Origin: a virus
Length of the DNA stretch: 25,215 nucleotides
IMG/VR virus record: IMGVR_UViG_3300037882_000059
Location: 1-25,215 of that record
Reading direction: 5' to 3' (one strand)
Below, piece after piece: positions 1-20,879 of this stretch. Position 1 is the stretch's first letter. Every line of letters begins with the position of its first letter. Under the pieces are notes generated by a model. That model did no database searches. It was not told the origin of the DNA and saw nothing but the letters and a program-made list of their open reading frames with translations. The position numbers and the translations under genes were made by a program.

Positions 1-1
1 A

Positions 2-671: not shown

Positions 672-672
672 T

Positions 673-1146: not shown

Positions 1147-1148
1147 CT

Positions 1149-3867: not shown

Positions 3868-3880
3868 CAATATGCAGGAA

Positions 3881-3905: not shown

Positions 3906-3926
3906 AACAAACCAAAGGAAACTCAA

Positions 3927-4337
3927 ATGAGTGATAAAGTTAAACTGAAGTGTGATATTTATTGGGCACAACTCAATCGTAAGAACGAGATGTCTGATGC
4001 ATATCAGGTGAATCTGTGCAACCTGTCTGATAAAGCAGTCGCTGCATTGGAAGACATGGGCATCTCTATTCAAGAGAATGCTGAGAAGAAGCCTGAGATG
4101 GGTAAGTACATCACATGCAAGTCTCAGAAGCCCATCAAGGCTTACGACAGTGATGGTGTTGAAATCATTGAAGACATTGGTAACGCAAGCAAAGCCGTGT
4201 GCATGATCGGTGCCTACTCTTGGACGTACAAGAACAAGAAGGGTGTTAGCCCATCGTTGGCTAAGCTGGTCATCACTGACTTGGTTGAGTACGCAAATGG
4301 TGGCAGCATCTCTGCTGAAGACGAAGACGTTCTCTAA
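3927..4337 (+). CDS. Single-stranded DNA-binding protein-like (136 aa)
   Basis: 136 residues from the ATG behind the AAAGGAA site (an upstream in-frame start exists but lies before the hairpin and has no site). The first 60 residues look like alternating beta strands with aromatics (IYWAQLNRKNEMSDAYQV), followed by LCNLSDKAVAALEDMGI, GKYITCKSQKPI and a conserved-looking KNKKGVSPSLAKLVITDL segment. The last residues (EDEDVL) form a short acidic tail, which in SSB proteins such as T7 gp2.5 recruits partner proteins. I therefore call it an SSB-type protein that coats single strands behind the helicase. The call rests on size, fold-like pattern, acidic tail and position between polymerase and exonuclease, not on a diagnostic motif. 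It has its own promoter and leader hairpin, consistent with high expression. Confidence 0.7.
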   Translation: MSDKVKLKCDIYWAQLNRKNEMSDAYQVNLCNLSDKAVAALEDMGISIQENAEKKPEMGKYITCKSQKPIKAYDSDGVEIIEDIGNASKAVCMIGAYSWTYKNKKGVSPSLAKLVITDLVEYANGGSISAEDEDVL

Positions 4338-5036: not shown

Positions 5037-5350
5037 AACCAAACGATGTAGCTGTAGTGCTGCGCCCCTTCGTCAAGAAAGGTGAAGCTTGGGATGGAGA
5101 TTTTGAAGTGATGATTAGTGGTGTTGGTCCTGTCACCATGAGTGAAGAAGACTTCAGTAGTCTTGTTCATATTGGTATGGTCATTGCTGCCACTGTTCAA
5201 CTCATTGACGAAGACCCCGCTCTTGCTGATCGCTTTCTCGACAAGGTTAAATCGATGTACGATCAGTCTGCTCTTGATGAACTTGAGGATGTCAAGGATG
5301 CTGAGTTTGTGTTGTCTAAGTATACGAAGACGATTGGGGGTGTGCAGTGA
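5009..5350 (+). CDS. Conserved phage protein of unknown function (113 aa)
   Basis: 113 residues; AAGGT ribosome-binding site inside the end of the exonuclease gene. The N-terminal half (DVAVVLRPFVKKGEAWDGDFEV then SGVGPVTMSEEDFSSL) looks like a small beta sheet followed by a helix, and residues 58-70 are a hydrophobic helix (IGMVIAATVQLID). The C-terminal third is acidic and helical. I associate this pattern with a family of hypothetical proteins found beside phage exonucleases; no function is known to me. It ends in a GTGA overlap with the next gene, so coupling is likely. Confidence 0.75.
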   Translation: MEATRANKLKPNDVAVVLRPFVKKGEAWDGDFEVMISGVGPVTMSEEDFSSLVHIGMVIAATVQLIDEDPALADRFLDKVKSMYDQSALDELEDVKDAEFVLSKYTKTIGGVQ

Positions 5351-5808
5351 TTGATAAGAACTGTGAGAATTGTTTTTACGGAGAACACCCTGCCAGTGCT
5401 GAGCCTTGTGTTAGTTGCTGTGCAGACTCAATGGATGGTAAAGACATGTACACTAAGTGGGTAGCCATTGATGTGTTCAAGAACATTGACAACCACGGTG
5501 AAGCTATGGCTGAGCGAGTTACTGGTGTCAAGTATGACAACGACAAACCTCAATGGTCATTGCTGCCCTTCAAAGCTTTGAAAGAAGTTGTTGATGTGTT
5601 GACCTACGGCGCGAAGAAGTATGCACCAGACAACTGGAAGAAAGTGCCTAATGCTAGGCAGCGTTATATCGATGCAGGCTTTCGTCACCTCACCGCCTAT
5701 GCTTCTGGTGAAAAGCTAGATAGTGAAACAGGTAAGAGCCACCTCGCTCACGCCATTTGTTGCCTGCTATACTTGCTGGCTTTTGAAATAGGAGAAGATC
5801 GTGGCTAA
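5347..5808 (+). CDS. dATP/dGTP diphosphohydrolase-like protein (DUF5664 type)
   Basis: 153 residues from a GTG start (GTGA overlap with the previous stop, GGGGGT site upstream). An N-terminal zinc-ribbon-like cluster has C6, C9, C21 and C24. From residue 60 the chain matches the dATP/dGTP diphosphohydrolase N-terminal domain family: GVKYDNDKPQWSLLPF, ALKEVVDVLTYGAKKY, NWKKV, then RYIDAGFRHL with H114, the metal-binding pattern GEKLDSETGKSHLAH (E122, D125, E127, H132, H135) and a C-terminal helix. The inferred role is to hydrolyse purine dNTPs or related nucleotides and shape the phage dNTP pool. The substrate cannot be told from sequence, and no PurZ gene for Z-DNA is in this window. The fusion of a Cys cluster to this domain is common among phage members. 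Confidence 0.82.
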   Translation: MIDKNCENCFYGEHPASAEPCVSCCADSMDGKDMYTKWVAIDVFKNIDNHGEAMAERVTGVKYDNDKPQWSLLPFKALKEVVDVLTYGAKKYAPDNWKKVPNARQRYIDAGFRHLTAYASGEKLDSETGKSHLAHAICCLLYLLAFEIGEDRG

Positions 5809-5977
5809 GATTACACTAACCTTTGTAGCTGAAGTAGACAACTCAGAACTTGACAGCATCTATACACATGAGGACTTGCTCGTTGAAGACTTGAAAGAGC
5901 ATGTGATCTATGCGTTGTCTCGGTTGAATATTGAAGACGTGTGTTTCAGTAATGTAGATGTGGAAGGACTGACATGA
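5801..5977 (+). CDS. Small protein, unknown function (58 aa, GTG start)
   Basis: 58 residues from a GTG preceded by GGAGA at good spacing; it overlaps the preceding stop by eight bases and ends with ATGA overlapping the next gene. The sequence begins MAKITLTFVAEVD, then an acidic helical stretch (EDLLVEDLKEHVIYAL) and NIEDVCFSNVDVEG. A short strand-helix-strand fold seems likely. No family is recognised. Support is the clear ribosome-binding site and the two-sided overlaps. Confidence 0.65.
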   Translation: MAKITLTFVAEVDNSELDSIYTHEDLLVEDLKEHVIYALSRLNIEDVCFSNVDVEGLT

Positions 5978-6165
5978 AGCTAACAATTACAACAGCAGAG
6001 AACGGATTCGTTGTTGATGTTGAAGAACCTTCTGATAGTCACTACTACTTCGTTGCTCTTGATGTTGCTGATGTATGCGGCATCGTTGAGAATGTACTGA
6101 CTGATCCAGCCGATGTGTTGGACATGACCAACCTAGCCTTTGAAGCGGTGCCTAGTGACCGTTAA
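5974..6165 (+). CDS. Small acidic protein, unknown function (63 aa)
   Basis: 63 residues beginning MKLTITTAENGFVV, with GAAGGA ribosome-binding site and an ATGA overlap upstream. The pattern suggests a three-strand start (LTITTAENGFVVDVEE, HYYFVALDVADV) and a helical end. It is strongly acidic. I recognise no family. The end overlaps the HNH nuclease start. Confidence 0.65.
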   Translation: MKLTITTAENGFVVDVEEPSDSHYYFVALDVADVCGIVENVLTDPADVLDMTNLAFEAVPSDR

Positions 6166-6535
6166 AGAACGCAATGGTGGTGAGTGGACAGAGGCACGAT
6201 TCAGAAGCTTCGTGACCTCTGCCTTACGTGCTGCGTCAAGGCGTTGGCCTCCGAAGTACAAGGCTTTGAAGGAAGCCTTTGCTGGTAGGAAGGTGAATGC
6301 TAAGACGGGTAAGCAGGCTATGCATTACAACTGTGCTGAATGCAAACAACTCTTTGTTGCTGCTGATGTGCAGGTAGATCACATCAAGCCCGTTGTAGAC
6401 CCTAAGAAGGGCTTCACTACATGGGACAACTTCATTGAGCGTATGTTCTGTGAGATGGAGAATCTACAAGTGATGTGTAAGCCTTGTCATAAAATCAAAA
6501 CTGATCAAGAGAAACTTGAAAGGAAAAAGAAATGA
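6155..6535 (+). CDS. HNH endonuclease (126 aa)
   Basis: 126 residues from the GTG at 6155 (a TTG 15 bases upstream is less likely). Helical, basic N-terminus (residues 10-50) with SALRAASRRWPPKYKAL, then a C60-x2-C63 knuckle, the D75-H76-I catalytic strand (VQVDHIKPV), N103 in ENLQVMC and a second C108-x2-C111-H112 knuckle with KTDQE after it. This is the zinc-knuckle HNH beta-beta-alpha metal nuclease. The CxxC...DHI...NLQ...CxxCH order is the form common in phages, where such enzymes nick or cut DNA in replication, packaging or as homing nucleases. It is embedded in the operon with overlaps on both sides, which speaks against a recent free-standing homing insertion. Confidence 0.88.
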   Translation: MTVKERNGGEWTEARFRSFVTSALRAASRRWPPKYKALKEAFAGRKVNAKTGKQAMHYNCAECKQLFVAADVQVDHIKPVVDPKKGFTTWDNFIERMFCEMENLQVMCKPCHKIKTDQEKLERKKK

Positions 6536-6819
6536 TGTATCGCAAGAAGCCAGTGGTTATTGAGGCACGACAACTCAACGGCTACACACTGTTTGAAATC
6601 ATGCGGTGGATTGATGATGGTGGTGGACGTGCCAAGAACTGGTCATGGGATAGTGACGAATCAACGATGCCTCTTCCTGAACGACACTTCTTCATTGAGA
6701 CTTTGGAGGGTGATATGAAGGCCGAGGACGGTGACTACATTATCAAGGGTATCAAGGGTGAGTTCTACCCATGCAAACCCGACATCTTTGAATTGACATA
6801 TGAAAGGATTGCAGCATGA
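6532..6819 (+). CDS. Conserved phage protein, GDYII-GEFYPC type (95 aa)
   Basis: 95 residues starting at ATGATG behind AAAGGAAAAAG. The start MMYRKKPVVIEARQL and the end TLEGDMKAEDGDYIIKGIKGEFYPCKPDIF are the two ends of a small phage protein family whose members occur in many tailed phages and prophages. The fold is probably a compact beta domain with a central variable region (residues 18-50). No function is established to my knowledge. It overlaps the neighbouring genes by four bases on each side. Confidence 0.85.
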   Translation: MMYRKKPVVIEARQLNGYTLFEIMRWIDDGGGRAKNWSWDSDESTMPLPERHFFIETLEGDMKAEDGDYIIKGIKGEFYPCKPDIFELTYERIAA

Positions 6820-7706
6820 GCTTCCTAAAATATCAACATCTTGAACGCTACGGTAACACCGAAGTGGAAGGTATCGAAGTGGGTACGTGCTACGTATTCC
6901 CTAAGCTAGATGGCACTAACGCTAGTGTTTGGTTTGAGCATGGTACGCTGCGGTGCGGAAGTCGTAACCGTGAGTTGTCACCTGACAATGACAACGCTGG
7001 TTTCATGAACGCTATGATGGTTGATAAAGCCATCATTAGCTTTCTGTACAACGAACCTGACCTTGTCCTCTACGGTGAATGGCTTGTGCCACACACACTG
7101 AAGACCTACAACGACGATGCATGGCGCAAGTTCTATGTGTTCGATGTGTTTGATCGTAAGAAAGAACGGCTACTTAGCTATGACGAATACTCAGCACCAC
7201 TTGTTGCTGCTGGCATCAACGTCATTGCACCTATTGCCATCATCAAGAACGGCAGCATCGACCACTTCACTGAGTGTCTGAGCAAGGCACACTATCTGGT
7301 GAAGGACGGTGAAGGCGCTGGTGAAGGTGTTGTCATTAAGAACTATGACTACAAGAACAAGTATGGTCGTCAGACATGGGCCAAGATTGTCGGCAACGAA
7401 TTCAAAGCTAAGCATCACCTTGAGATGGGTGCGCCTGTCATTGGTTGTGAAATCGTTGAAGAGAAGATTGCAGCTAAGTATGTGACGCAAGCTTTGGTGG
7501 ATAAGGTTGTTGCAAAAATCACTAACGAAATGGAAGGGTGGTCTAGCAAATACATTCCTCGTTTGATTCACACTGTATACTACGACTTAGTCACTGAGGA
7601 AACATGGAACTTCGTGAAGGAGTTTAAGAATCCTAAGATTGACTTCAAGGTGTTGTCGCATTATGTGACAGCAAAGATTAAAGAACTAAAGAAGGAATTG
7701 TTCTAA
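6816..7706 (+). CDS. RNA ligase, T4 Rnl2-like
   Basis: 296 residues, ATGA overlap upstream, AAAGGA site. The covalent nucleotidyltransferase motifs are in order: motif I K30-L-D-G (AMP attachment lysine), RNR at 50-52, motif III LYGE88-W, IIIa FYVFD (106-110), motif IV E170-GVVIK-175 and motif V W188-A-K-I. This places it with ATP-dependent RNA ligases of the Rnl2 type; the residues after ~200 form an extra helical C-terminal domain like that of Rnl2 relatives. It would seal nicked RNA such as cleaved tRNA. A DNA ligase is less likely because the usual OB-fold region is absent. The window also codes a tRNA gene, but no polynucleotide kinase is visible here. Confidence 0.88.
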   Translation: MSFLKYQHLERYGNTEVEGIEVGTCYVFPKLDGTNASVWFEHGTLRCGSRNRELSPDNDNAGFMNAMMVDKAIISFLYNEPDLVLYGEWLVPHTLKTYNDDAWRKFYVFDVFDRKKERLLSYDEYSAPLVAAGINVIAPIAIIKNGSIDHFTECLSKAHYLVKDGEGAGEGVVIKNYDYKNKYGRQTWAKIVGNEFKAKHHLEMGAPVIGCEIVEEKIAAKYVTQALVDKVVAKITNEMEGWSSKYIPRLIHTVYYDLVTEETWNFVKEFKNPKIDFKVLSHYVTAKIKELKKELF

Positions 7707-7867
7707 TGAACTTTCTAAGTTTACTAACTCTCGTCTTCATTGTGTTGAAGCTGACAGACTTCATTGATTGGTCTTGGTGGTTTGTATTAGCACCAACACT
7801 GATTGGAGTTACTGTAATGCTCAGCACAGTTGTTGGTCTAATTGTTTTTGCAGTGAGGAAGAAATGA
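7706..7867 (+). CDS. Small membrane protein (53 aa)
   Basis: 53 residues starting at the A of the RNA ligase TAA (TAATG). Two hydrophobic segments are evident: residues 3-16 (FLSLLTLVFIVLKL) and 26-50 (WFVLAPTLIGVT then VVGLIVFAV), joined by DFIDWSWW, and the chain ends in RKK. This is the layout of a short phage inner-membrane protein with LK-x4-W-SWWWVLAP-like sequence that occurs in many phages; function unknown. The small size and positive C-terminus would also suit a regulatory membrane peptide. The end overlaps the next gene (ATGA). Confidence 0.72.
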   Translation: MNFLSLLTLVFIVLKLTDFIDWSWWFVLAPTLIGVTVMLSTVVGLIVFAVRKK

Positions 7868-8034
7868 AAATCGAACTTGACATGTACAAAGAAAACGAAG
7901 ACGGATCAGCAGACTTCAGCGTCAACCTAGACAGCGAAGCCATTGAGTTTCTCGTCCGCAAAGCCCTGCTTGATTGCATCAAAGAAGGTATTGAGATGGG
8001 CAAGACAGCAACACCAACAGAGGAAACAGAATGA
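7864..8034 (+). CDS. Small acidic protein, unknown function (56 aa)
   Basis: 56 residues beginning MKIELDMYKE behind GAGGAA; both ends overlap neighbours by four bases. A short strand-turn-strand (MKIELDMYKENEDGSADFSVNLD) precedes a helix (SEAIEFLVRKALLDCIKEGIEM) and a Thr-rich tail. A longer frame extends upstream but starts within the membrane-protein gene and is not supported. No family recognised. It is directly before the MazG-like gene. Confidence 0.68.
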   Translation: MKIELDMYKENEDGSADFSVNLDSEAIEFLVRKALLDCIKEGIEMGKTATPTEETE

Positions 8035-8345
8035 ACATCGATGTATATCAAACAGAAGCTATGAAGCTTCGACTGCCCACCGCAGATCGTGAGTATGCCC
8101 TATTGAACTTGGTAGCTGAAGCTGGTGAGGTGGCAGGTAAGGCCGCTAAGTTGCGCCGAGATGGGGGCGATATTGAAAAATACAATAGCGACATCAAGAA
8201 AGAACTTGGTGATGTGTTGTGGCAGGTTGCTGCTGTTGCTCAAGACCACAAGCTTAGTATGTCAGAAATTTGTGTACACAATTTGCAAAAGCTGTGGGGT
8301 AGAAAAGACAACGGTACACTTCAGGGCAGTGGGGACAATCGCTAG
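8031..8345 (+). CDS. MazG-like nucleotide pyrophosphohydrolase (104 aa)
   Basis: 104 residues, AGAGGAAA site, ATGA overlap. All-alpha NTP-PPase signature: E30-A-G-E33 in the first helix (LLNLVAEAGEVAGK) and E58-L-G-D61-VLWQ in the second, the four acidic residues that hold Mg2+. The C-terminus NLQKLWGRKDNGTLQGSGD is the usual end of phage MazG-like proteins. The expected reaction is hydrolysis of (d)NTPs to (d)NMPs plus pyrophosphate; possible roles are dNTP pool sanitation or lowering (p)ppGpp, which has been proposed for phage MazG. It closes its operon: an intrinsic-terminator-like hairpin follows 30 bases later. Confidence 0.88.
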   Translation: MNIDVYQTEAMKLRLPTADREYALLNLVAEAGEVAGKAAKLRRDGGDIEKYNSDIKKELGDVLWQVAAVAQDHKLSMSEICVHNLQKLWGRKDNGTLQGSGDNR

Positions 8346-8346
8346 A

Positions 8347-8355
8347 TGGTATAAC
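8347..8355 (+). promoter_or_regulatory. Possible extended -10 promoter before RNR genes
   Basis: TGG followed by TATAAC (8350-8355), directly after the MazG stop. No convincing -35 box lies 16-18 bases upstream, so the call depends on the extended -10. Transcripts starting near 8362 would carry the hairpin at 8375 in their 5' leader and then the RNR ribosome-binding site. Confidence 0.35.
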
Positions 8356-8374
8356 TCCTACCCCTCCCACACCT

Positions 8375-8398
8375 AAGCAGCTTCGGCTGCTTTCTTTT
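8375..8398 (+). terminator. Rho-independent terminator-like hairpin
   Basis: Stem AAGCAGC / GCTGCTT (8375-8381 and 8386-8392) with a TTCG tetraloop, a very stable combination, followed by a U-rich run (TTTCTTTT). It ends the operon that runs to the MazG-like gene. The stem is short and the U-run is broken by one C, so read-through into the RNR genes is possible. Confidence 0.65.
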
Positions 8399-8422
8399 CC
8401 TATAACACTAAGGTATTACTCC

Positions 8423-10201
8423 ATGACATTCAAGGTTGACATTGACCTATCCCGTGACGCATTGTTCGACGAACTCGGACTACAGCGCCTCAAAGAAAGC
8501 TACATGAAAGATGATGAAAAATCTCCACAAGAACGTTTCGCATTTGTATCAGCAGCATTTGCCAGCAATCAAGAACATGCTCAGCGACTGTATGACTACT
8601 CTAGTAAACATTGGCTCAGCTATTCTACTCCTATCTTATCTTTTGGTCGTTCTAAGCGCGGGTTGCCTATTAGCTGTTTTCTTAATTACATGGATGATAG
8701 TGCAGAAGGTTTGGTCGATAACCTTTCAGAGACTAACTGGCTCTCAATGATGGGTGGTGGTGTCGGTGTTCACGTTGGCATCCGCAACAGTGACGACAAA
8801 TCGACAGGGGTTATGCCTCACTTGAAAATCTATGACGCTAGTTCATTGGCCTACCGTCAAGGACGTACACGCCGTGGTAGCTATGCTGCCTACCTCAGTA
8901 TCAATCACCCCGACATCATCCAATTCTTGGAGATGCGTAAGCCTACTGGTGATCAGAACGTTCGCACCTTGAACATGCACCACGGCATCAACATCACTGA
9001 CGATTTCATGGACATCATTGAGCGATGCATGAAGGATGACAATGAGGACGACAGCTTCAATCTGATTAACCCTGCTGACGGTAGTGTTGTTGAGACAGTG
9101 TCGGCTAAGTATTTGTGGCAGAAGATTCTTGAGTTGCGTATGCAGACTGGTGAACCCTACCTCATCTACATCAACACAGCTAACCGGGCTTTGCCATCTT
9201 GGTTGAAAGACAAAGGTTTGAAGATTAACGGTAGCAATCTCTGCACTGAAATCTTCTTGCCAACAAACGAGAAACGTACAGCCGTGTGCTGCTTGTCTTC
9301 ATTGAACTTGGAATACTATGACGAATGGAAAAAAGATAAGCAGTTTATCCTTGATGTTATGGAGATGTTGGACAACGTGCTGCAATACTTTATTGACAAT
9401 GCACCAGACACTATTGCCCGTGCTCGTTCCAGCGCTATGATGGAGCGTAGCATCGGTATTGGCACACTAGGCTTCCATGCTTTCTTGCAGAAGAAGGGTG
9501 TCGCCATTGATGGTGTCATGGCTAAGAGTTACAACAATGAAATCTTCAAACACATCCACGCACAGTGTACGATTGGTGATGCTATTTTGGTTACGTCACG
9601 TGGTGAATGCCCTGACGCACATCTCAGTGGTATTCGTCGTCGCTTCAGCCATTGGACTGCTATTGCTCCCAATGCCAGCAGCAGCTTGATCATGGGCAAC
9701 ACAAGCCCTTCAGTTGAACCCTATCGTGCTAACGTGTTCCGTCAAGACACATTGTCTGGTGCGTTCGTGTACAAGAATCGTTTCCTCAAAGCTGAGCTTG
9801 AGAAGCTTGGTATGGACGATGACGATACATGGGCATCTATCATTTCCAACGATGGTTCTGTGCAGCACTTGGATGTTCCTGAACAAATCAAGGACGTGTA
9901 CAAGACAGCGATGGAGATTGATCAGCGATGGTTGGTTGAGCTTGCAGCAGATCGTCAGAAGTACATTGATCAAGGACAATCGATCAACCTGTTCTTCCCC
10001 GCTAACGTGTCTGTGAAGTATCTGCACGGTGTTCACTTCCTTGCATGGAAGAGTGGACTCAAGAGTCTGTACTATCTTCGCAGTGAGAAAGTGAAGAAGG
10101 CAGACAAGGTTGGTGCTCAGATTAAACGTCAGCGCATCGAAGATGAAATTGATTTGAAGACCATTGCAGACGGTGATAGCTGCTTAGCATGTGAAGGATG
10201 A
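8423..10201 (+). CDS. nrdA: Ribonucleotide reductase class I, large (alpha) subunit
   Basis: 592 residues. It reduces ribonucleoside diphosphates to deoxy forms in complex with the following small subunit. Conserved residues: C85 in SCFLN (redox pair), N272-x-C274-x-E276 (radical and acid/base triad), C289/C290 before LSSLNL (partner cysteine), NTSPSVEP for substrate phosphate, Y550-Y551 for the radical relay, and a C-terminal CLACEG pair that accepts electrons. The N-terminal ATP-cone allosteric domain of host enzymes is missing, common in phage versions, so overall dATP inhibition is probably lost; inference. The start has an AAGG site. Length is about 170 residues below E. coli NrdA, consistent with loss of the cone and trimming. 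Confidence 0.96.
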   Translation: MTFKVDIDLSRDALFDELGLQRLKESYMKDDEKSPQERFAFVSAAFASNQEHAQRLYDYSSKHWLSYSTPILSFGRSKRGLPISCFLNYMDDSAEGLVDNLSETNWLSMMGGGVGVHVGIRNSDDKSTGVMPHLKIYDASSLAYRQGRTRRGSYAAYLSINHPDIIQFLEMRKPTGDQNVRTLNMHHGINITDDFMDIIERCMKDDNEDDSFNLINPADGSVVETVSAKYLWQKILELRMQTGEPYLIYINTANRALPSWLKDKGLKINGSNLCTEIFLPTNEKRTAVCCLSSLNLEYYDEWKKDKQFILDVMEMLDNVLQYFIDNAPDTIARARSSAMMERSIGIGTLGFHAFLQKKGVAIDGVMAKSYNNEIFKHIHAQCTIGDAILVTSRGECPDAHLSGIRRRFSHWTAIAPNASSSLIMGNTSPSVEPYRANVFRQDTLSGAFVYKNRFLKAELEKLGMDDDDTWASIISNDGSVQHLDVPEQIKDVYKTAMEIDQRWLVELAADRQKYIDQGQSINLFFPANVSVKYLHGVHFLAWKSGLKSLYYLRSEKVKKADKVGAQIKRQRIEDEIDLKTIADGDSCLACEG

Positions 10202-10203
10202 AT

Positions 10204-11163
10204 ATGACAAAGAATAAAGCCGACATTACACAAGAACGTACCATCTTTAAACCGTTCAGGTTTCCTTGGGCCTATGACGCATGGCTACAACATGAACAGT
10301 CTCATTGGCTGCACACTGAAGTGCCTATGTCAGAGGACGTTAAAGACTACAAGAAGCTGAACAAGGACGAGCAAGAGTTTCTGACAAAGATATTGCGCTT
10401 CTTTGTACAGGGTGACTTGGACATTGGCAGTGGCTACCACGACCATTACATTCCTTTGTTCCGTCAACCGGAAGTGCGAATGATGATGAGTGGGTTCGCT
10501 GCCCGTGAAGCTTTGCACGTTGCAGCCTATGCACACTTGATCGAAACATTGGGCCTGCCTGAATCAACCTACAACGAGTTCTTGCAATACGGTGAGATGG
10601 TAGAGAAGCATGACTACCTGCAACGCTTGAACACAGCACCAGTGGCTGAGAAGATTGCTGTCATCTCTGCGTTCGGTGAAGGTATGCAGTTGTTCTCAAG
10701 CTTTGTTATGTTGCTCAACTTTGCACGTAACGGTAAGCTGAAAGGACTTGGTCAAATCATTAGCTGGTCCATTCTTGATGAGACTATGCATGCTGAAGGG
10801 ATGATAAAGGTATATCGTGAGTATGTTAAACACCACCAAGATGAAACAACACCTGAACAGATTAAAGAGATTGCTAAGGAGATGGTTGCTCTTGAAGACC
10901 AGTTCATTGATCTTGCTTTTGGTATGTTGGAAGTTGAGAAACTTACCAAAGAAGAAGTGAAGCAGTACATTCGTTACATTGCTGATCGTCGCCTTATTGC
11001 TATGGGCATGAAGGGCATCTACAAGATTAAGAAGAACCCTTTGCCGTGGGTTGACGGCATGCTTGGTACATCACACACCAACTTCTTTGAACAGAAGGTT
11101 ACAGACTACAGCAAGGGTGCTCAGACTGGTACATGGGATGATGTGTGGGGTAAGGCGGTATGA
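10204..11163 (+). CDS. nrdB: Ribonucleotide reductase class I, small (beta) subunit
   Basis: 319 residues from the ATG at 10204, whose GAAGG site is six bases away; the ATG at 10198 (ATGA overlap with the alpha stop) touches that site directly and so is less likely. Ferritin-like di-iron protein. Aligning by motif with E. coli NrdB gives metal ligands D48, E102, H105, E159, E193 and H196, and the radical tyrosine at Y109 (E-A-L-H-V-A-A-Y). The set is complete, so a tyrosyl-radical class Ia-type enzyme is expected rather than a Mn/Fe or radical-less variant. The acidic/aromatic C-terminus (GTWDDVWGKAV) would dock to the alpha subunit. Confidence 0.95.
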   Translation: MTKNKADITQERTIFKPFRFPWAYDAWLQHEQSHWLHTEVPMSEDVKDYKKLNKDEQEFLTKILRFFVQGDLDIGSGYHDHYIPLFRQPEVRMMMSGFAAREALHVAAYAHLIETLGLPESTYNEFLQYGEMVEKHDYLQRLNTAPVAEKIAVISAFGEGMQLFSSFVMLLNFARNGKLKGLGQIISWSILDETMHAEGMIKVYREYVKHHQDETTPEQIKEIAKEMVALEDQFIDLAFGMLEVEKLTKEEVKQYIRYIADRRLIAMGMKGIYKIKKNPLPWVDGMLGTSHTNFFEQKVTDYSKGAQTGTWDDVWGKAV

Positions 11164-11342
11164 GAAACTTCACTGTCAGCTATAGCAGTCAAAGCAATGT
11201 CTTCAAGGGTGTGTTGCATGTCAAAGCAAACACAATCTCTGAAGCACAGGACAAGTTCTTTGATTGGCTACGAGAACAACCTTCATATGCACACCTCTGG
11301 CAACTCAGCTTTGAGTTTACGGAGATTGGAACTAGTCTATAA
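11160..11342 (+). CDS. Small protein after RNR, unknown function (60 aa)
   Basis: 60 residues, ATGA overlap with the RNR small subunit and AAGG site. Strand-helix-strand pattern: MRNFTVSYSS..., LHVKANTISEAQDKFFDWL and LWQLSFEFTEIG; the alternating VSY/LHVKA strands and a helix with ISEAQDKF look like a small ferredoxin-like or swapped-hairpin fold. I recognise no functional family. Its stop overlaps the -10 of the predicted phoH promoter. Confidence 0.72.
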   Translation: MRNFTVSYSSQSNVFKGVLHVKANTISEAQDKFFDWLREQPSYAHLWQLSFEFTEIGTSL

Positions 11343-11343
11343 T
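11316..11343 (+). promoter_or_regulatory. Sigma70-type promoter before phoH
   Basis: TTTACG (11316-11321), 16-base spacer, perfect TATAAT (11338-11343). Start site predicted near 11350, that is, at the foot of the hairpin at 11351-11375. Confidence 0.55.
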
Positions 11344-11350
11344 GTCCCCT

Positions 11351-11375
11351 AAGAAGCCCCATGTCGGGGCTTCTT
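11351..11375 (+). promoter_or_regulatory. Leader hairpin before phoH
   Basis: Perfect 10-bp stem AAGAAGCCCC / GGGGCTTCTT (11351-11360, 11366-11375) with a 5-base loop. No U-run follows (next bases CACAACC), so it is a poor terminator. With the TATAAT box directly upstream it would form the very 5' end of the phoH transcript. A role as RNase-resistant 5' cap-like stem or as terminator for the RNR unit are both possible. Confidence 0.6.
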
Positions 11376-11395
11376 CACAACCAAAGGAAGTATCG

Positions 11396-12145
11396 ATGGT
11401 AACGAAGAAACGAGTAGCGCCTAACGTCATCCCTGACGCACCAGCACCAGCTACAAAGAACAATAGCTTGCGTGTTCGTCTTGACGACATGGCAACTATC
11501 CAACCCAAGACAGCAAAGCAGAAGGAATTCTTTGATGCCTACAACGCTGGAGACTACTTCATGTGTCTGCATGGTGTTGCTGGTACAGGTAAGACTTACA
11601 TTGCCTTGTACAAAGCGCTTGAAGAAGTGATGGACAAGAGCAGCCCTTACAAGAAGGTTGTCATTGTTCGTAGCTCTGTACAAAGCCGCGACATGGGGTT
11701 CTTACCCGGTGATGCCAACGAGAAGATGGAGACATTCATCCAGCCCTATCGTCAAATCTGTGCCGACCTATTCAACCGCAAGGATGCATGGGATAGATTG
11801 TCTGAACAAGGCTACATCGAATTCATTTCGACCAGCTTCATTCGCGGCACTACCTTCACCAACTCCATCTTGTTGGCTGACGAGATTCAGAACATGACGT
11901 TTGAAGAACTCGACACCATCGTCACTCGTGTTGGTCACACGTCGAAGATCATCTACTGTGGTGACATTCGACAGACTGACTTGAAGAAGAAGGATGACAA
12001 GACAGGCTTGCCAAAGTTCTTGGACATTGTTCAGAACATGAAAGAGTTCAGCCGCTTTGAGTTTGGTATGGATGACATTGTGCGTAGTAGCTTGGTGAAG
12101 AACTACATCATTGCTAAAACACTCTATGAGGATCGTCAACCATGA
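11396..12145 (+). CDS. phoH: PhoH-like P-loop ATPase
   Basis: 249 residues from the ATG at 11396, six bases after the AAAGGAA site; a start at 11342 would place the site and hairpin inside the gene and is rejected. Residues 1-35 are a basic/Pro-Ala-rich tail. The ATPase core has Walker A GVAGTGKT (60-67), Walker B ILLADE with D162-E163, and a sensor-like YCGDIRQTD segment (187-195) followed by an Arg/Lys-rich end. PhoH proteins are common in marine and freshwater phages; they bind ATP and are thought to act in RNA or phosphate-stress processes, but their phage role is unclear. It starts the third rightward operon. Confidence 0.93.
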   Translation: MVTKKRVAPNVIPDAPAPATKNNSLRVRLDDMATIQPKTAKQKEFFDAYNAGDYFMCLHGVAGTGKTYIALYKALEEVMDKSSPYKKVVIVRSSVQSRDMGFLPGDANEKMETFIQPYRQICADLFNRKDAWDRLSEQGYIEFISTSFIRGTTFTNSILLADEIQNMTFEELDTIVTRVGHTSKIIYCGDIRQTDLKKKDDKTGLPKFLDIVQNMKEFSRFEFGMDDIVRSSLVKNYIIAKTLYEDRQP

Positions 12146-12324
12146 TGCTTGTAGAAATGCGACAAGGCTTCGGCCTAGATATTGAGTTCAACGATTCAAT
12201 CTGCTATGTTGCAGATACCGATGAATTTGAAGATGGCTTGTTTGCCTTTGTTGGCATCATCATCCTGTTACCTTTCATCAGGATACACATTGGTGAAATG
12301 AACCATATAGGTGGCAAGCAGTGA
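12142..12324 (+). CDS. Small protein with hydrophobic C-terminal segment (60 aa)
   Basis: 60 residues with a GAGGA site and ATGA overlap with phoH. The N-terminal half is polar and acidic (RQGFGLDIEFNDSICYVADTDEFEDG); the second half has a hydrophobic run LFAFVGIIILLPFIRIHIG at residues ~33-51, which may be a beta-rich core rather than a membrane helix. It is a small protein type I have seen after phoH-like genes in phages. Function unknown. The end overlaps the next gene (GTGA). Confidence 0.68.
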   Translation: MMLVEMRQGFGLDIEFNDSICYVADTDEFEDGLFAFVGIIILLPFIRIHIGEMNHIGGKQ

Positions 12325-12812
12325 TTGAAGTAATTGTTACAGGTGACATGCTCGTTGAAGCGCGAGACAAAGCAGCAGAGATGGGCAGGCTTCGTAACTC
12401 CATCATCAATGGGGCTGGCAACATCGCTGGCTTCATTGGTGAGGCCATTGCTCAGAAGGTGATGGGTGGTGTGCTTACTAACACATACGAGTACGACCTC
12501 ATCTTATGCAACGGTAAAACAGTGGATGTGAAGACTAAGCAGACTTCTGTTAAACCGTTAGAAACCTACGAGTGTTCTATTGCTGCATTAAATACAACCC
12601 AAGAGTGTGACTACTATGCTTTCGTTCGTGTGAAGAACGACTTCAGTGTAGGCTGGTTATTGGGTGTGTATGAAAAGAAGCAATATATGCTTGACGCAAA
12701 GTATCTGACTAAGGGTACAATTGATCCCGACAATGGCTATGTAGTTAAGAGCAATTGTTACAACCTTCCTATCCACCAACTAAAGGAGCATACATATGCA
12801 ACCCGTGAATAA
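12321..12812 (+). CDS. PD-(D/E)XK-like nuclease family protein (163 aa)
   Basis: 163 residues from a GTG (GTGA overlap). An N-terminal helical part with GFIGEAIAQKVM (E41) is followed by YEYD59-LIL, then D69-V-K71-T-K73 in the strand GKTVDVKTK. The spacing E...D...(D)xK with the hairpin matches the core of PD-(D/E)XK nucleases. Later residues (ECDYYAFVRV, GWLLGVY) resemble the remaining strands of the fold. It could be a structure-specific DNase or a recombination or host-DNA cutting enzyme. No specific family can be named, and the catalytic reading is inference. Confidence 0.65.
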   Translation: MIEVIVTGDMLVEARDKAAEMGRLRNSIINGAGNIAGFIGEAIAQKVMGGVLTNTYEYDLILCNGKTVDVKTKQTSVKPLETYECSIAALNTTQECDYYAFVRVKNDFSVGWLLGVYEKKQYMLDAKYLTKGTIDPDNGYVVKSNCYNLPIHQLKEHTYATRE

Positions 12813-12972
12813 AGCAACCATCATCTTCACCGACAATAACGATGGAGGTCTTGAGATGCAAATCTTGTTTGACCCTGAACCAGTCAACAAAGAAAGCAAC
12901 GCTCACATCGCTGCTGTGTTGGCTTATCAATACATCACAGAGAAAGTTGACGAAGATGAATCATCCAACTGA
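12796..12972 (+). CDS. Small protein, unknown function (58 aa)
   Basis: 58 residues starting MQPVNKATII inside the end of the previous gene, with an AAAGGAG Shine-Dalgarno sequence (12782-12788), one of the best in the window. Strands at 7-13 (ATIIFTD) and 19-26 (LEMQILFD) are followed by a helix (AHIAAVLAYQYITEKVDED). The end overlaps the start of the next gene by 17 bases. A competing open frame over the same bases has no such ribosome-binding site. Family unknown. Confidence 0.7.
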   Translation: MQPVNKATIIFTDNNDGGLEMQILFDPEPVNKESNAHIAAVLAYQYITEKVDEDESSN

Positions 12973-13246
12973 ACCTATCAAACGCACCTATGTCACCACG
13001 ACAGACATGCAAGAGAAGACTAAGAAGGTAGACTACTATGTTGTACCTGACACAACCACAACACTGTGCTTTATGCATCTACACTGTGGTTTTCTAATCA
13101 TTGGTAAGAGCGCCTGTGTAGACCCTGCTAAGTTTAATCAAGCTCTTGGTGAGAAGTATGCTTACGAGGATGCCATCAACAAGATGTGGGAACTTGAAGG
13201 GTATTTGTTATCTAACGAAATCTATGGAGATGGTCATGCAGTATAA
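12956..13246 (+). CDS. N4 gp49/Sf6 gp66-like phage protein (96 aa)
   Basis: 96 residues from the ATG at 12956. Longer in-frame starts exist upstream but run over the previous small gene. The sequence fits the phage N4 Gp49/Sf6 Gp66 family: a start with KRTYVTTTDMQEK, a central LCFMHLHCGFLIIGKSACVD block (Cys and Gly conserved in the family) and an EDAINKMWELEGYLL helix. Family members are small, cytoplasmic and of unknown function. It overlaps the following gene by 11 bases. Confidence 0.85.
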   Translation: MNHPTEPIKRTYVTTTDMQEKTKKVDYYVVPDTTTTLCFMHLHCGFLIIGKSACVDPAKFNQALGEKYAYEDAINKMWELEGYLLSNEIYGDGHAV

Positions 13247-13409
13247 GCGTCCTCAACATTTGCTTAGCATTCAGTTTGGTAAAGGCTACTACGCATTCAG
13301 TCGTGGATGGTTGTCTAACAGCTACGATCCAGACAGCTTAGCTGGTAAAGAATGGCAGCGTGGTTTTGATGCTGCCTACTTCGACAACCTTGCAAAACTA
13401 AAAATGTGA
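13236..13409 (+). CDS. Small protein before the tRNA gene (57 aa)
   Basis: 57 residues from the third of three in-frame ATGs (13224, 13230, 13236); GGAGA at 13226 gives a good site for the last. The chain has FGKGYYAFSRGWLSNSY and a C-terminal EWQRGFDAAYFDNL motif that occurs in small phage proteins. Rich in Tyr, Phe and Trp; probably a compact domain. It is the last rightward protein gene; its TGA stop is also the TG of the extended -10 before the tRNA. Confidence 0.68.
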   Translation: MQYKRPQHLLSIQFGKGYYAFSRGWLSNSYDPDSLAGKEWQRGFDAAYFDNLAKLKM

Positions 13410-13415
13410 TATAAC
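13407..13415 (+). promoter_or_regulatory. Extended -10 element before tRNA-Trp
   Basis: TGA plus TATAAC (13410-13415). Expected start near 13422, only about two bases before the mature 5' end of the tRNA. No clear -35 box. Confidence 0.35.
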
Positions 13416-13423
13416 ATTTCCAC

Positions 13424-13499
13424 GTTCCGGTAGCTCAACTGGCAGAGCAACGGATTCCAAATCCGTAGGTTGTGGGTTCGACTCCTACTCGGTTCGCCA
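13424..13499 (+). tRNA. tRNA-Trp (anticodon CCA)
   Basis: 76 bases with encoded CCA end. D-stem GCTC/GAGC (13433-13436, 13445-13448), anticodon stem ACGGA/TCCGT (13450-13454, 13462-13466) with loop TTCCAAA giving anticodon CCA, variable loop AGGTT, T-stem GTGGG/CCTAC with loop TTCGACT, and discriminator G73, as expected for bacterial tRNA-Trp. The acceptor stem is imperfect: pairs 2-71 and 3-70 are U-U mismatches and 7-66 is G-U, leaving four canonical pairs. Phage tRNAs usually supplement the host pool or resist host tRNA cleavage. The gene may be functional or partly degenerate. Confidence 0.88.
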
Positions 13500-13503
13500 A
13501 CAA

Positions 13504-13532
13504 AAAGGGGAAGCTTCATCGGCTTCCCCTTT
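13504..13532. terminator. Bidirectional intrinsic terminator
   Basis: Perfect 11-bp stem AAAGGGGAAGC / GCTTCCCCTTT with a 7-base loop, between the tRNA gene and the convergent 1744-residue gene. For leftward transcripts the stem is followed by U5-G-UU, a good terminator; for rightward transcripts the tail is UUU then mixed bases. It separates early/middle from late transcription units. Confidence 0.85.
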
Positions 13533-13557
13533 ACTATTTGTCGGTACTTATCAACAA

Positions 13558-16500
13558 TCACCGACGAGTTGCAAGGCCACCCTTCGCCAGCTTTGGCACA
13601 AACTTCCTCACCTCATCCAGTGGTTTGACTCGTTTGCTTTCGTCAACTGCTGTAGAGATTGCAGGTTCCGACTGTTGAAACTTCTTCAACTTGTCGCTGA
13701 GTTCATACAGATTCTGTGCTTTCTGTTTGGCTCCACCATCCCACAAAATATCACCGACCTCTCGCATCTGACGTTGGATACCTGAGTAGTCTGCAAAGTT
13801 GTTAATGGCAGCTTGATACTGCTGACCAAGACCAGACTTTGTAGACGTTGCTGTAGCCATATCCAAATAGCTGTTCATTAGATTTTTAATACCCTGATAA
13901 GACATATAAGCCATCTTCATTTGCTCTTTAGGGTTTGTGCTATTACGAGCAAGCTTCATTTGTTCAGATACATTTTCTTCTACGCGTTTGATCACTGCTC
14001 GGTTCAGTCCTTTACCGCCAGTCTCCAGCACTTGAGCAACATCCTTTTCACCACTACGCAACTTAGCGTTAGCACCTTTGACGCGAAGCTTCTCAGCCTC
14101 CAACATCATGTCTTCAGTTTCCAAGAAGCCAGCACGAGGCAGACCAATAGGACGAACAACACCGGGTGCGCCAGTGACAGCGCGAAGGATTGTATTCATG
14201 TCCTTTGCATCATACTTCTCAGGAGCCATGTTGATTTTGTTGAACACATAATCAGCATAAGGAATCTCTGTGACAACATAGTTCTGTGGTTTTGTTCCAC
14301 CAAACGGTGTGCCTCGGAAGCCAAGGTTCAGGTCTTTAGTGAACGATGGAGCGCCCACCATCATTTCAGAATGGAAGAATTCGTCACGCTTGGATGGGTC
14401 TGTGAAGCCTGACTTCTTCAGTGTATCCACATCTTCAGTAACACCTTGACCGTGGAACAACTTCACAGGTGGTACATCCTTATACTTCTCACGCAAAACA
14501 TCAAGACGTTTCTGGTACTGAGTAGCCAACTTCACAGCGTCAGCAAGCATCTCAGGGTCTTTAGGGTTGAGTTCAACACCACGAGAGTAGCGATAGTCAC
14601 CCAACACCACACCCAAGACATCGTCATCTACTGAAGCAAACTTGTCGTTGTTACGCATCTTAAAGAAGCTGTCTTCGCGTGTCTCTTTAATGGCAGCAAC
14701 AGCAGCATTACGTTGTGAAACACTGGTCTTCTTAGCGATAGAGTTGGCATCACCAGATAAATACTTAGGGTCAATACCGTACTCGTCAGCGATTGGTTCA
14801 GCCTTTTTAACCACAGCTTTGCCACCAACACTGACAGGATTACCATCCATGTCGTATTCAACTTCATCCACCAAAGACTCAGCAGCCTCGTCAGTCTTCT
14901 TAGCAAAAGGTGGTGGAGGAATCTCAGACGACTTCAACCCTTTAGCCATACCTGTGAAACTATGAAGAGTGTTCTCATAGTCTTCAGGGTTGGCAACCTT
15001 CCAAGACTTCAACTGTGCAGGTGTATACATCTCCAGCATAGCTTCTTCACCCATGATGTAGTCTTCATCAGCAAAAGCTTTAGAAGGCGTAGGAGCCTCT
15101 ATTTCCTTTAGCGCAGGGGTAGCTAGGACTTCATCTGTTTGACTCAACACAGGCGCTTCTGGCAGGGTTGGTGCAGGCTTTGCTGCTTCTTCAGGAAGCA
15201 CAGTCGTTGGCTTTGCTGTAGTCTTAGGCAGCACAGGCTTCTTACCCATCAACATGTTCGCAGTCTGGTCCATTGCTGGAGATGTTGTTGTCTCAGACAA
15301 TCGCTTGTTGATGATGTCGTCAATGGCGACAGTCTCAACTGGTGCAGGTGCAGCACTCTTCAGTCGCTTAGCTGTATCCAACACAGACTCAGCAGCACCA
15401 CCAACAATCTTCTTACCAACAACCTTAGTTGCTGTCAGTCCACCAAGGGCGTATGTAGGAACAAGACCACCTTTAGCGAATGCCAAGTTACCCAACATAG
15501 CGTTGTACTTATCAACAGCTTTGTAGTCTTTGGCTTCTTCCAATGTTGTACCGTTGTTGTCGTTAGCATAACGCTCGTTGATAACCTTACGCTGATCCTG
15601 TGACAGCTTATCAAACTGCATCTTCTTAATACGAAGGATGTCTTCAGACATGAACTTACCGTCTGTCTTATCACGAGCAATACCTGTAACGTCACGCACA
15701 ACGTTTGTCAACGCAAGCTTCTGTTCTGTTGGAGACAATGCTTGATAGCGTTTGTTTGCTGTGGTACGCTCAATGGCGCTAATGACCATTGGGTTAGCAG
15801 CTTCAACGAAGGAACGGTCATATGTTCGATCACCCGATGATGGACCATACAGTTTGTAAGGGTCAATGCCGAGTCGAACAATCTCTTTCTCAGCAGGAGT
15901 CTTTGCTGGTGTCTCACGTACACCGACCAAACTATAGAAGAATTCACCTTCTTTGTACACTGGACCTTCACGCAAGCGTGGAACAGCTTCAGGCAAAGAC
16001 TCTTTGACAACTGGCAGCTTAGACTGCACACGATTGACAGCAGCCTCAATGAAACGATCACCGCTGTCTTCAGCAGTGATGACGTTGGGGTCACGCTGAA
16101 TAGCACCTTCTTCACGGAACAGATCAAAGAATTCGTAAGCGCTCTTAAACACAAACGGTTGTGAGAAACGAGCAGTGAAGTCACCAACAACTTTACCCAA
16201 AGCAACTTCAAGCTTGTCAGCTTCTTTCTCAGAAGACATGGCAGCAAACACTTGATCAAGGAATTGGTTCTGTGTGCCAGCAGGCATCTTCATACCGATG
16301 ATGGACTCAACCATCTCAGCAGTCTTTGGCTCCAATCCCATCTTACGCTTAGCCATGAAGTCAGCAACAGCCAGTGTTGGACCCAATGGGAAGATGGCAC
16401 GAGTGTCAACAGTAGAACCATCATCGTTCTTCATGTTGTACCACTCAGTGTCTTGGTTGTTCAGGCGATAGTCATAGGCCGCTGCCAATGCAGCAGTACC

Positions 16501-18792
16501 AACAACACCCTTAGCGATGTTCTCTTGACCTTTACGAATGAGAGCATCACCACCAGCCTCACCAGAAGCTTTCAACAACGCACCCTGTGCCAAGTCTTGA
16601 GCACCAGAGGCTGCACCAAAGACGCTATAGCGATATTGGAAAGCAATGGCGTTCGACATGAAGCGAGGGAATGTAGCAATCAAACTACCACCGGGGAACT
16701 CAGCAGCTTTAACGAACAAATTACCAGCAGCTTCTGCACCAGCTTCAAAGGTTTGAATACCTTTCTTCTGCACCTTTGGTGTGTAGGAGAATGTAGCCTT
16801 CAGTGTTTCGTCAGTAGCTTGTTGCAGGATTGATGCAGGGATTGTCTTACCTTGACCAATAACCTCATACATGTCCAAACCAGCACGGCGCATGTGCTTC
16901 TCAACAGCAGCGTTGAAGATGGCTTTGCGGAAGAAAGCATCCTGTGCAACGTTCAATGTGTTGAAGATTTGTGCAGCACGAGAGATTTCGTTAGTGGAGC
17001 TTTCCTGTGTAGCGCTCAAGATGTTGTTACGCAACGCAGGGTTGTGTTGCAACAAAGTGTCTGTCACTTCAGTGGACAATCCATTCTTAGCCATGTAGCC
17101 GTACACACCAAACGCATCGCTCATTGTGTCACCAAGACTACGCATAGCTGTAGTGAGTCGCTGACCTTTAGCTGCACCATCCAGTGTACGACCAACTGTG
17201 TACAACGCACCTTCAACAAGCGAAGCAGCAGAGTTGTATGTCAAACCAACAGTAGTACCCAACACGTTACGAACGGTAGTACCAATACCAGAGACAACCC
17301 AAGCTTTAGATTCACGCTCAAGAGTTTGTACAGCTTGACCAACACGACCAAGCGCTGACACTTGACTGTCTGGTTTAGCAAACAGATCGTCCACTTGTTT
17401 CTTGAATGCTGGATCAATCTCTGTCAATCGCTTCAGCACCTTAGACGCAGCAGAGTATTGCTGCATCACCTGAGCAGCTTCTGTCACCGTCATCTTGTTT
17501 GCTTTAGCGAAGTCGTCTGGTGTCAAACCTTCCTTACGAATAGCCTGTTCTAGTACAACATCATCTACATTGTCCAAATTGGAGAACACATCATTGATGG
17601 CAGAGCTAGTTTGTTGGTTAGGTTTAAGACGGAATGTTGGGTCTTGTTCAATGACGTGCATCGCCACACGAACAGCACGAGCCGACATGTCCTTCTGAAT
17701 CTTTGCATCCGTCAAAGCTGTAGCGGGATTGACTTCGTCCAAGATACGACGACCTTCAAGCTTGATAAAGTCTTCAACAACTGTGTCCATGTTCGCAGTG
17801 ACAGGGTCTGTCAAGATACGCTCAGTAGATGTGACAGGTGCGTTAGGGTCTTTAGGTGATGCTTGCTTTTTCTTCAACACATCAGTGAGTTGTTCAGCAC
17901 CGGACTTACCAGCAGGAACAGCCAATGTACCTTTAGCTTCTACAAAGCCACCAACAGAACTGAACAAAGCAGCAACTGCCATTTGACCAGCATCAAGATC
18001 GGCAGGTTGTTCGCCAAGCGCTTTAGCTACTTCTTGTTTCTTCTTCTGTTCAATGACGTTCTGTCCAACACCGACGATGGCTTCAGTGCCTACAGTGGCA
18101 GCAGTGACAGCAGCAGGTGTAGCTTTCAACAACGAAGCTGTAGCAGCCTTTGTTGCTTCCTTAGCAATCATCTTCTTACCAACAGCAGCAGTACCGAAAC
18201 CAATGTAGTTGGTCAAGTCAGTCAGTGCAGACTTTGCAATGTCAACGTATGGTGCAGCACCGGGCTGACCACCCTTTTCTGTAGCATCTTTAACTTGATC
18301 GAATAAACGATTACCCAATGCCAACTTCTCACGATCAGGCATTGATGAGTTCTTCAGCTTGTTAAGAGCGGCAATGTTTGAGAAAGTGTTCCAGTCATTA
18401 CCACGCAACTCAGACATGAAGCCAGCAACATACTGCTCCTTGTCATCACCTTCTTTGTATTCTTTACCAGTGGCAACTTTGTTGTAGTCACTGACAATCT
18501 TGAACAGATCAGGATTGGTGTAGAGTTCTTTATATTCAAACTTAGGTTTGTTGCGCTCTTCAATAGCAGCAGCTTGAACCTTCTGTAGTTCTGTAGCACG
18601 TTGACGTGGTGCTGCCATTGCAGGCTTGGTCAAGTCTACTTCAGGCTTTGCAGCCATTCGTTCGATTTGTTGTGGTGTTGGTGCTGTCTTCGATGGTACA
18701 AGATCATCAAAGGAACCAGCAGTAGACGGAATCAAGTCAGCAAAGGCGCTGCCTCCACCCGTAGATGGAAGCAAGTCATCAAACATTCCCAT
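13558..18792 (-). CDS. Large internal-virion/ejection-type protein (1744 aa)
   Basis: The largest gene of the window and last of the leftward operon; CAGGAG site. The N-terminus repeats a short motif three times (FDDLLPS, FADLIPS, FDDLVPS, residues 4-35), which is found at the starts of many phage internal or polyvalent proteins. The rest is mostly long helical, Ala-rich segments with hydrophobic stretches (near 205-240 and around 760), charged coils, a Pro/Thr-rich linker (about 1140-1250) and FAKGG (1105-1109). A C-terminal region (about 1440-1565) has LFHG (H1447), SFTKD (S1483) and ETED (E1558/E1560), an ADP-ribosyltransferase-like order. The end is KLAKGGLATRR. No lysozyme motif is seen. 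The probable role is an internal protein injected with the DNA; this is inferred from size, composition and place among late genes. Confidence 0.8.
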   Translation of the reverse strand: MGMFDDLLPSTGGGSAFADLIPSTAGSFDDLVPSKTAPTPQQIERMAAKPEVDLTKPAMAAPRQRATELQKVQAAAIEERNKPKFEYKELYTNPDLFKIVSDYNKVATGKEYKEGDDKEQYVAGFMSELRGNDWNTFSNIAALNKLKNSSMPDREKLALGNRLFDQVKDATEKGGQPGAAPYVDIAKSALTDLTNYIGFGTAAVGKKMIAKEATKAATASLLKATPAAVTAATVGTEAIVGVGQNVIEQKKKQEVAKALGEQPADLDAGQMAVAALFSSVGGFVEAKGTLAVPAGKSGAEQLTDVLKKKQASPKDPNAPVTSTERILTDPVTANMDTVVEDFIKLEGRRILDEVNPATALTDAKIQKDMSARAVRVAMHVIEQDPTFRLKPNQQTSSAINDVFSNLDNVDDVVLEQAIRKEGLTPDDFAKANKMTVTEAAQVMQQYSAASKVLKRLTEIDPAFKKQVDDLFAKPDSQVSALGRVGQAVQTLERESKAWVVSGIGTTVRNVLGTTVGLTYNSAASLVEGALYTVGRTLDGAAKGQRLTTAMRSLGDTMSDAFGVYGYMAKNGLSTEVTDTLLQHNPALRNNILSATQESSTNEISRAAQIFNTLNVAQDAFFRKAIFNAAVEKHMRRAGLDMYEVIGQGKTIPASILQQATDETLKATFSYTPKVQKKGIQTFEAGAEAAGNLFVKAAEFPGGSLIATFPRFMSNAIAFQYRYSVFGAASGAQDLAQGALLKASGEAGGDALIRKGQENIAKGVVGTAALAAAYDYRLNNQDTEWYNMKNDDGSTVDTRAIFPLGPTLAVADFMAKRKMGLEPKTAEMVESIIGMKMPAGTQNQFLDQVFAAMSSEKEADKLEVALGKVVGDFTARFSQPFVFKSAYEFFDLFREEGAIQRDPNVITAEDSGDRFIEAAVNRVQSKLPVVKESLPEAVPRLREGPVYKEGEFFYSLVGVRETPAKTPAEKEIVRLGIDPYKLYGPSSGDRTYDRSFVEAANPMVISAIERTTANKRYQALSPTEQKLALTNVVRDVTGIARDKTDGKFMSEDILRIKKMQFDKLSQDQRKVINERYANDNNGTTLEEAKDYKAVDKYNAMLGNLAFAKGGLVPTYALGGLTATKVVGKKIVGGAAESVLDTAKRLKSAAPAPVETVAIDDIINKRLSETTTSPAMDQTANMLMGKKPVLPKTTAKPTTVLPEEAAKPAPTLPEAPVLSQTDEVLATPALKEIEAPTPSKAFADEDYIMGEEAMLEMYTPAQLKSWKVANPEDYENTLHSFTGMAKGLKSSEIPPPPFAKKTDEAAESLVDEVEYDMDGNPVSVGGKAVVKKAEPIADEYGIDPKYLSGDANSIAKKTSVSQRNAAVAAIKETREDSFFKMRNNDKFASVDDDVLGVVLGDYRYSRGVELNPKDPEMLADAVKLATQYQKRLDVLREKYKDVPPVKLFHGQGVTEDVDTLKKSGFTDPSKRDEFFHSEMMVGAPSFTKDLNLGFRGTPFGGTKPQNYVVTEIPYADYVFNKINMAPEKYDAKDMNTILRAVTGAPGVVRPIGLPRAGFLETEDMMLEAEKLRVKGANAKLRSGEKDVAQVLETGGKGLNRAVIKRVEENVSEQMKLARNSTNPKEQMKMAYMSYQGIKNLMNSYLDMATATSTKSGLGQQYQAAINNFADYSGIQRQMREVGDILWDGGAKQKAQNLYELSDKLKKFQQSEPAISTAVDESKRVKPLDEVRKFVPKLAKGGLATRR

Positions 18793-20868: not shown

Positions 20869-20879
20869 ATACGCCTTTA

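Follow-up and report, generated by a model that had tools for sequence, protein, structure and literature searches.

A hairpin and a probable -10 box at the nrdAB/phoH boundary of freshwater phages

The window, by which we mean the whole stretch of DNA that was analysed, is an IMG/VR virus record of 25,215 bases. Its plus strand carries, in order, DNA polymerase, an SSB-like protein, an exonuclease, an RNA ligase, MazG, nrdA (8423-10201), nrdB (10198-11163), a 60-aa ORF (11160-11342), phoH and tRNA-Trp, and genes of large proteins lie on the minus strand downstream of the tRNA. The 60-aa ORF, read from its translation and retained in relatives, had no match in a PHROG search; the minus-strand proteins encoded at 13558-22958 (1744, 459 and 692 aa) likewise had no PHROG match. 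By DNA polymerase, the nearest annotated record is MW202701 (63% identity), a complete, circular podovirus genome of 54.8 kb from a spring, followed by Limnohabitans and Curvibacter phages at 51-52% identity; the phages compared here are a freshwater group. A search for a single-subunit, T7-type RNA polymerase (PF00940), in which T7 itself scored 9.9e-110, detected none in 14 related contigs, MW202701, PQ492658 and KY981271, although many of the contigs are fragments, as is the window, and a divergent polymerase (that of the N4 virion is divergent) could escape such a search. This absence from the relatives suggests that the phoH promoter is probably used by host RNA polymerase, which would be the likely transcriber of these phages in general. 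Among known RNA families, the tRNA alone was matched in the window.

The original prediction described the phoH leader as a promoter followed by a 10-bp hairpin and a Shine-Dalgarno sequence, and each of these parts can be found on the plus strand: a proposed -35 hexamer TTTACG (11316-11321), a spacer of 16 nt, the probable -10 hexamer TATAAT (11338-11343), the hairpin AAGAAGCCCC-ATGTC-GGGGCTTCTT (11351-11375, with arms at 11351-11360 and 11366-11375 and the loop at 11361-11365), the Shine-Dalgarno sequence AAAGGAAG (11383-11390; recognised by its sequence and present in most window-clade leaders) and the ATG at 11396. Transcription is predicted to start 6-8 nt after the box, at 11349-11351, which would leave 0-2 unpaired bases before the stem, in line with the predicted start at the extreme edge of the hairpin; the hairpin also lacks a U-run, as had been said, with two T in the eight bases at its 3' edge. 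What had passed unremarked is that TATAAT overlaps the stop codon TAA (11340-11342) of the 60-aa ORF, whose last Leu codon, CTA, together with that stop supplies most of the box. An in-frame ATG at 11342, within TATAATG, was considered as the start of phoH and would make the hairpin coding, but relatives contradict it: the extension contains an in-frame TAA after the hairpin in five loci (L002-L004, L090 and L091) and has ATA in place of ATG in two (L001 and L019). The conserved start of phoH is thus the ATG at 11396 (249 aa, 11396-12145), which leaves the hairpin outside the coding region. The match to phrog_170 (7.1e-83) was obtained with the longer ORF that begins at 11342.

Tests against chance separate the hairpin from the hexamer pair. 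The hairpin is kept in relatives and is stronger than expected from dinucleotide shuffles of two overlapping stretches: for one stretch 2 of 200 shuffles fold as well (z -3.29), for the other none of 200 does (z -3.79). Strong hairpins are also rare in comparable surroundings; of 40 same-strand gaps that are 30-160 bases long and come from 13 sources, 7 have one, versus 8 of 400 shuffled gaps, a frequency that favours the original prediction. The TTTACG/TATAAT promoter fared less evenly, since the -10 box is kept in relatives and the -35 hexamer is neither conserved nor above chance. Sites resembling a sigma-70 hexamer pair numbered 22 in positions 1-20000 against 27.7 +/- 5.5 in shuffles. TTTACG matches at four of six positions, relatives have TTTGTA, TTCACT or TTCACA, and the best -35 match at a spacing of 16-18 nt equals that at random positions in every leader type (3-5 of 6 matches in the window clade, 1-4 of 6 elsewhere). 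TATAAT, by contrast, stands in all 14 window-clade leaders that have no box in the loop, as a sigma-70 -10 hexamer conserved among relatives would. The comparison therefore supports the -10 box of the phoH leader and not the -35.

The position of the box relative to the hairpin differs among lineages. Viral contigs were scanned twice with a single protein and once with a profile, which yielded 104 distinct phoH leaders, from 28 PhoH clusters at 93% identity, and a -10-like hexamer is paired with a hairpin in 35 of them. The box precedes the stem in 19 leaders, 14 from the window clade and five from the L190 clade; it forms part of the loop, as TATAAT or TACAAT, in 14 leaders with eight different arm sequences; and it follows the stem in two (L041 and L038), as a weaker box after a terminator. 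The loop types comprise AAGAAGCCCC-TATAAT-GGGGCTTCTT (L025, L030), which has the arms of the window, AAGCCCC-TATAAT-GGGGGCTT (L033, L036, L142), GGAGC-TACAAT-GGCTCC (L042, L044), GAGGGC-TACAAT-GCCCTC (L045, L046), GGGGC-TACAAT-GCCCC (L169) and longer loops containing TACAAT (L158, L156, L020/L026); L156 was placed here by eye, the script having taken the wrong start codon. The 69 leaders left uncounted mostly have no gap or stem, some have coding stems, and three others miss one or both parts (L171 has a hairpin and no box, L047 has TATACT and no hairpin, and L031 has neither). Stems inside an apparent small overlapping ORF were also left out of the count (L163, L170, L175, L177, L181 and L182), although the script found TAYAAT in L163 and L175 as well, and L212 has a terminator and no box. 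The same 5'-hairpin leader, for which a search of relatives had been proposed, is found in the window clade, while its sisters have the box in the loop (14) or behind the stem (2).

Several observations support the box. In the 14 box-before leaders of the window clade, where the loop is ATGTC (ATTTC in L005) and TATAAT lies at the upstream stop codon, the last Leu codon of the upstream ORF is CTA or TTA in 14 of 14, whereas in the loop-type leaders that belong to this clade it is CTG or TTG in 6 of 6; CTA and TTA are rare, together making up 12.4% of 250 Leu codons in ten window genes. In an unbiased scan of hexamers in the loops of stems of at least 6 bp, TATAAT occurred four times against 0.20 expected and TACAAT four times against 0.29, and six of these eight loops are phoH leaders. 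Other hexamers, CAGTGA (7 versus 0.53) and TTACGG, were enriched as strongly, and the motif TAYAAT had been picked after the leaders were inspected. In control hairpins of the form AAGCCCC-N6-GGGGCTT from viral contigs, a TATAAT or TACAAT loop occurred in 0 of 81 among the matches listed. Six changes are required to explain the loop state on a tree of PhoH DNA sequences, at least three of them forced by well-supported (starred) branches; the tree took in 38 of the 104 leaders, the other 66 mostly having no gap or stem, and these counts are rough and possibly inflated, since leaders may have recombined.

Boxes of a similar kind occur ahead of other genes. The nrdA leader has an extended -10-like box, TGGTATAAC (8347-8355, with TATAAC at 8350-8355), and the hairpin AAGCAGC-TTCG-GCTGCTT (8375-8392) followed by TCTTTTCC, all on the plus strand. 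Among relatives L001-L151, TATAAC and a terminator-like hairpin occur together in 62 of 71 distinct nrdA leaders; in 61 of these 62 the box lies 12-24 nt from the U-run hairpin across a G-poor stretch, with a Shine-Dalgarno sequence after it. The exception is apparently the window's own locus, where the script took a second, later TATAAC, although the first is separated from the stem by 19 nt. Of 63 nrdA hairpins, 47 have a TTCG loop, TTTT loops also occur, and the class II RNR gene of MW202701 is preceded by the same TATAAC/UUCG-hairpin leader. In the window, the nrdA leader (8347-8422) has the look of a promoter reading at once into a terminator-like hairpin, which resembles an attenuator. 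The SSB-like gene is preceded by another extended -10-like box, TGATACAAT (3857-3865, plus strand), which overlaps the stop codon of DNA polymerase, and 11 of the 49 distinct leaders of this gene, all of them from close to the window's clade, contain TGNTAYAAT. Its hairpin (3881-3905, plus strand; 7 bp with an 11-nt loop) is not above shuffles, of which 37 in 200 fold as well (z -0.84), so the recurrent order of promoter, hairpin and Shine-Dalgarno sequence that had been proposed applies to nrdA and to the window's phoH leader and is weak at the SSB-like gene.

Furthermore, the window, L016, L029 and L031 have TGATATAAC boxes 9-10 nt ahead of tRNA genes, suggesting that promoters centred on the -10 are in use in the group and lending credibility to the nrdA box. 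Extended -10 promoters have the form TGnTATAAT, and the SSB, nrdA and tRNA boxes resemble them in having no clear -35; the phoH boxes differ in having no TGn in front. The window also has a compact tRNA unit (13407-13532) made up of TGATATAAC, eight further bases, tRNA-Trp (13424-13499) and a 12-bp terminator-like hairpin (13504-13532).

How much of the phoH hairpin would enter the transcript depends on where the box stands. With a start 6-8 nt past the box, the window clade would keep 10 of 10 bp behind 0-2 unpaired leading bases, the L190 types would start within the 5' arm and keep 3-5 of 9 bp, and the loop and after types would keep 0 bp. The stem itself is nevertheless retained in every one of them, and its main target may therefore be RNA that enters from nrdAB. 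A U-run follows the stem in several of them, with 5-7 T in eight bases in L190, L042, L045, L169, L041 and L038. The window clade and the L158, L020, L156, L030 and L033 types have 0-3 T in eight, and termination there is therefore doubtful; in the window clade in particular, the immediate U-run that accompanies the G+C-rich stem of an intrinsic terminator is missing.

We consider it about evenly balanced (a probability near 0.5) that 11316-11396 is a compact boundary between the nrdAB and phoH operons, in which a hairpin serving nrd read-through has the phoH promoter superimposed on it. The hairpin would act on transcripts entering from nrdAB, whether by ending, slowing or protecting them, and a host sigma-70-type promoter on the same bases, recognised mainly through its -10 box, would start phoH. 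In several relatives the hairpin would be a clear intrinsic terminator with a U-run, and in the window clade a stem without a real one, where the box happens to lie just ahead of the stem, so that phoH mRNA would begin with the hairpin. Such a start at an intact hairpin would be confined to the window clade, a lineage-specific geometry. The arrangement is like an intrinsic terminator beside a sigma-70 promoter in pairing an intergenic hairpin, with a U-run in several relatives, with an adjoining promoter-like box, and unlike one in that the -10 is itself the hairpin loop in 14 leaders and the window clade has no U-run. Against an operon boundary of this kind stand the lack of a -35 above chance in any leader type, the want of a proper U-run in the L158, L020, L156, L030 and L033 types as well as the window clade, the L171, L047 and L031 leaders with one or both parts missing, and the nrdA box, which precedes its terminator-like hairpin in nearly all leaders and so reverses the order of terminator followed by promoter.

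Alternatively, the phoH mRNA may start at the stem, which would hinder 5'-dependent decay. Stem-loops at the 5' end stabilise mRNA in E. coli, as in ompA and papA, and the stabilising stem is separated from that end by no more than about 0-4 nt. The window stem, at 0-2 nt from the predicted 5' end in the 14 box-before leaders of its clade, would have this geometry, and its 10 bp, intact and without a U-run, are not an obvious terminator. The L190, loop and after types do not have it: most other lineages of the phoH leader have lost this arrangement, and their transcripts would lack most or all of the stem, yet the hairpin is conserved. This pattern gives no support to a stabiliser conserved throughout the group, and we regard stabilisation as an unlikely account of the leader, although a possible one within the window clade. 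(Works on stabilisation by the ompA and papA stem-loops are cited in an excerpt of PMC3997798.) Nor does the proposal transfer to nrdA, where a start 6-8 nt after the box would put about 5-19 unpaired bases ahead of the stem, and where that distance and the U-run better fit a terminator or an attenuator. The nrdA order in turn raises the possibility that the phoH promoter, too, reads at once into a terminator-like hairpin with regulated read-through, and the L190 phoH leader, in which TATAAT is followed by the stem and TTTTTCTT, has the same appearance as the 61 of 62 nrdA leaders with TATAAC 12-24 nt ahead of a U-run hairpin. Since the window's phoH hairpin has no U-run, and since in the loop and after types transcription would not start ahead of the hairpin, attenuation at phoH is improbable.

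A protein, PhoH or another, could instead bind the hexaloop UAYAAU on a variable stem near the Shine-Dalgarno sequence and control translation or decay of the read-through mRNA. Operator hairpins of RNA phages have a conserved loop on a variable stem, and the phoH leaders resemble them in that the loop is more conserved than the arms, the expected trace of a protein that reads the loop, and in that the stem adjoins the Shine-Dalgarno sequence. They differ in that some lineages have the hexamer elsewhere than in the loop: it lies outside in 21 of the 35 leaders (19 before the stem, two after), and the window clade and the L190 types have a different loop. TAYAAT is also the usual variation of a -10 box, and nrdA hairpins have TTCG or TTTT loops, all of which makes an RNA operator rather improbable. 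The window TATAAT may even be no promoter at all but a chance product of the Leu-stop-T junction, with the hairpin a mere processing or 3'-end element of nrd mRNA. That the hexamer pair is no commoner than in shuffles and the -35 is at chance level would agree with this, but the codon choice at the stop and the reciprocal presence of the box in sister loops argue otherwise, and the odds of a chance box are poor. Lastly, in the loop-type leaders supercoiling might extrude the DNA as a cruciform whose hexaloop displays the -10, to be read by host sigma as single-stranded DNA, while the same bases terminate nrd read-through. In phage N4, hairpin promoters are formed by template-strand DNA extruded under supercoiling with SSB and are read by the phage's own polymerase, as described in an excerpt of PMC4496689. 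A hairpin-forming stretch coincides with a promoter in both cases; here, in contrast, no single-subunit polymerase was found in the relatives, and the loop is the -10 consensus and lies on the non-template strand. We hold a cruciform promoter to be very improbable. Were it real, supercoiling and traffic would decide whether one 26-bp element is promoter or terminator, and host polymerase would have its own counterpart to the hairpin promoters of N4, from which the window clade would have escaped by shifting the box to the neighbouring stop codon.

If the leader is a superimposed operon boundary, phages that apparently rely on host RNA polymerase need about 60 bases to finish one operon and begin another. 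A small open-licence literature search found no description of a terminator hairpin whose loop contains a promoter -10 box. The leaders also form a natural series of variants, with the same -10 box before, inside or behind one hairpin, that suits tests of interference between promoter and hairpin. They also caution against taking a hairpin beside TATAAT in a single genome for a 5' stabiliser until its relatives have been compared.

A terminator type widespread in hosts was also considered, but AAGCCCCTATAATGGGGCTT had five matches in genome contigs (three Methanolobus, one Parcubacteria and one Flavobacteriaceae), so it is no common host element. A near pattern had four matches in viral contigs (L235-L238), adjoining unrelated genes; in L235, L237 and L238 an unrelated gene is followed by AAGCCCCTATAATGGGGGCTT and then by another GGGGGCTTT arm, so that the stem-TATAAT-stem arrangement recurs there in a different context.

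A candidate structured RNA of about 125 nt was noticed in L016 (5020-5150), L020 (11425-11556), L031 (5827-5957) and L033 (11429-11559). It lies behind a TGATATAAC box, ends in TTTTTT and is directly 5' of a small ORF that looks, by eye, HNH-endonuclease-like. A comparison with Rfam at E 0.1 gave no match. Its core pattern recurs in five stretches of viral contigs, in L031 it occupies the nrdB-phoH gap, and six of 36 predicted pairs show compensatory change across the four sequences.
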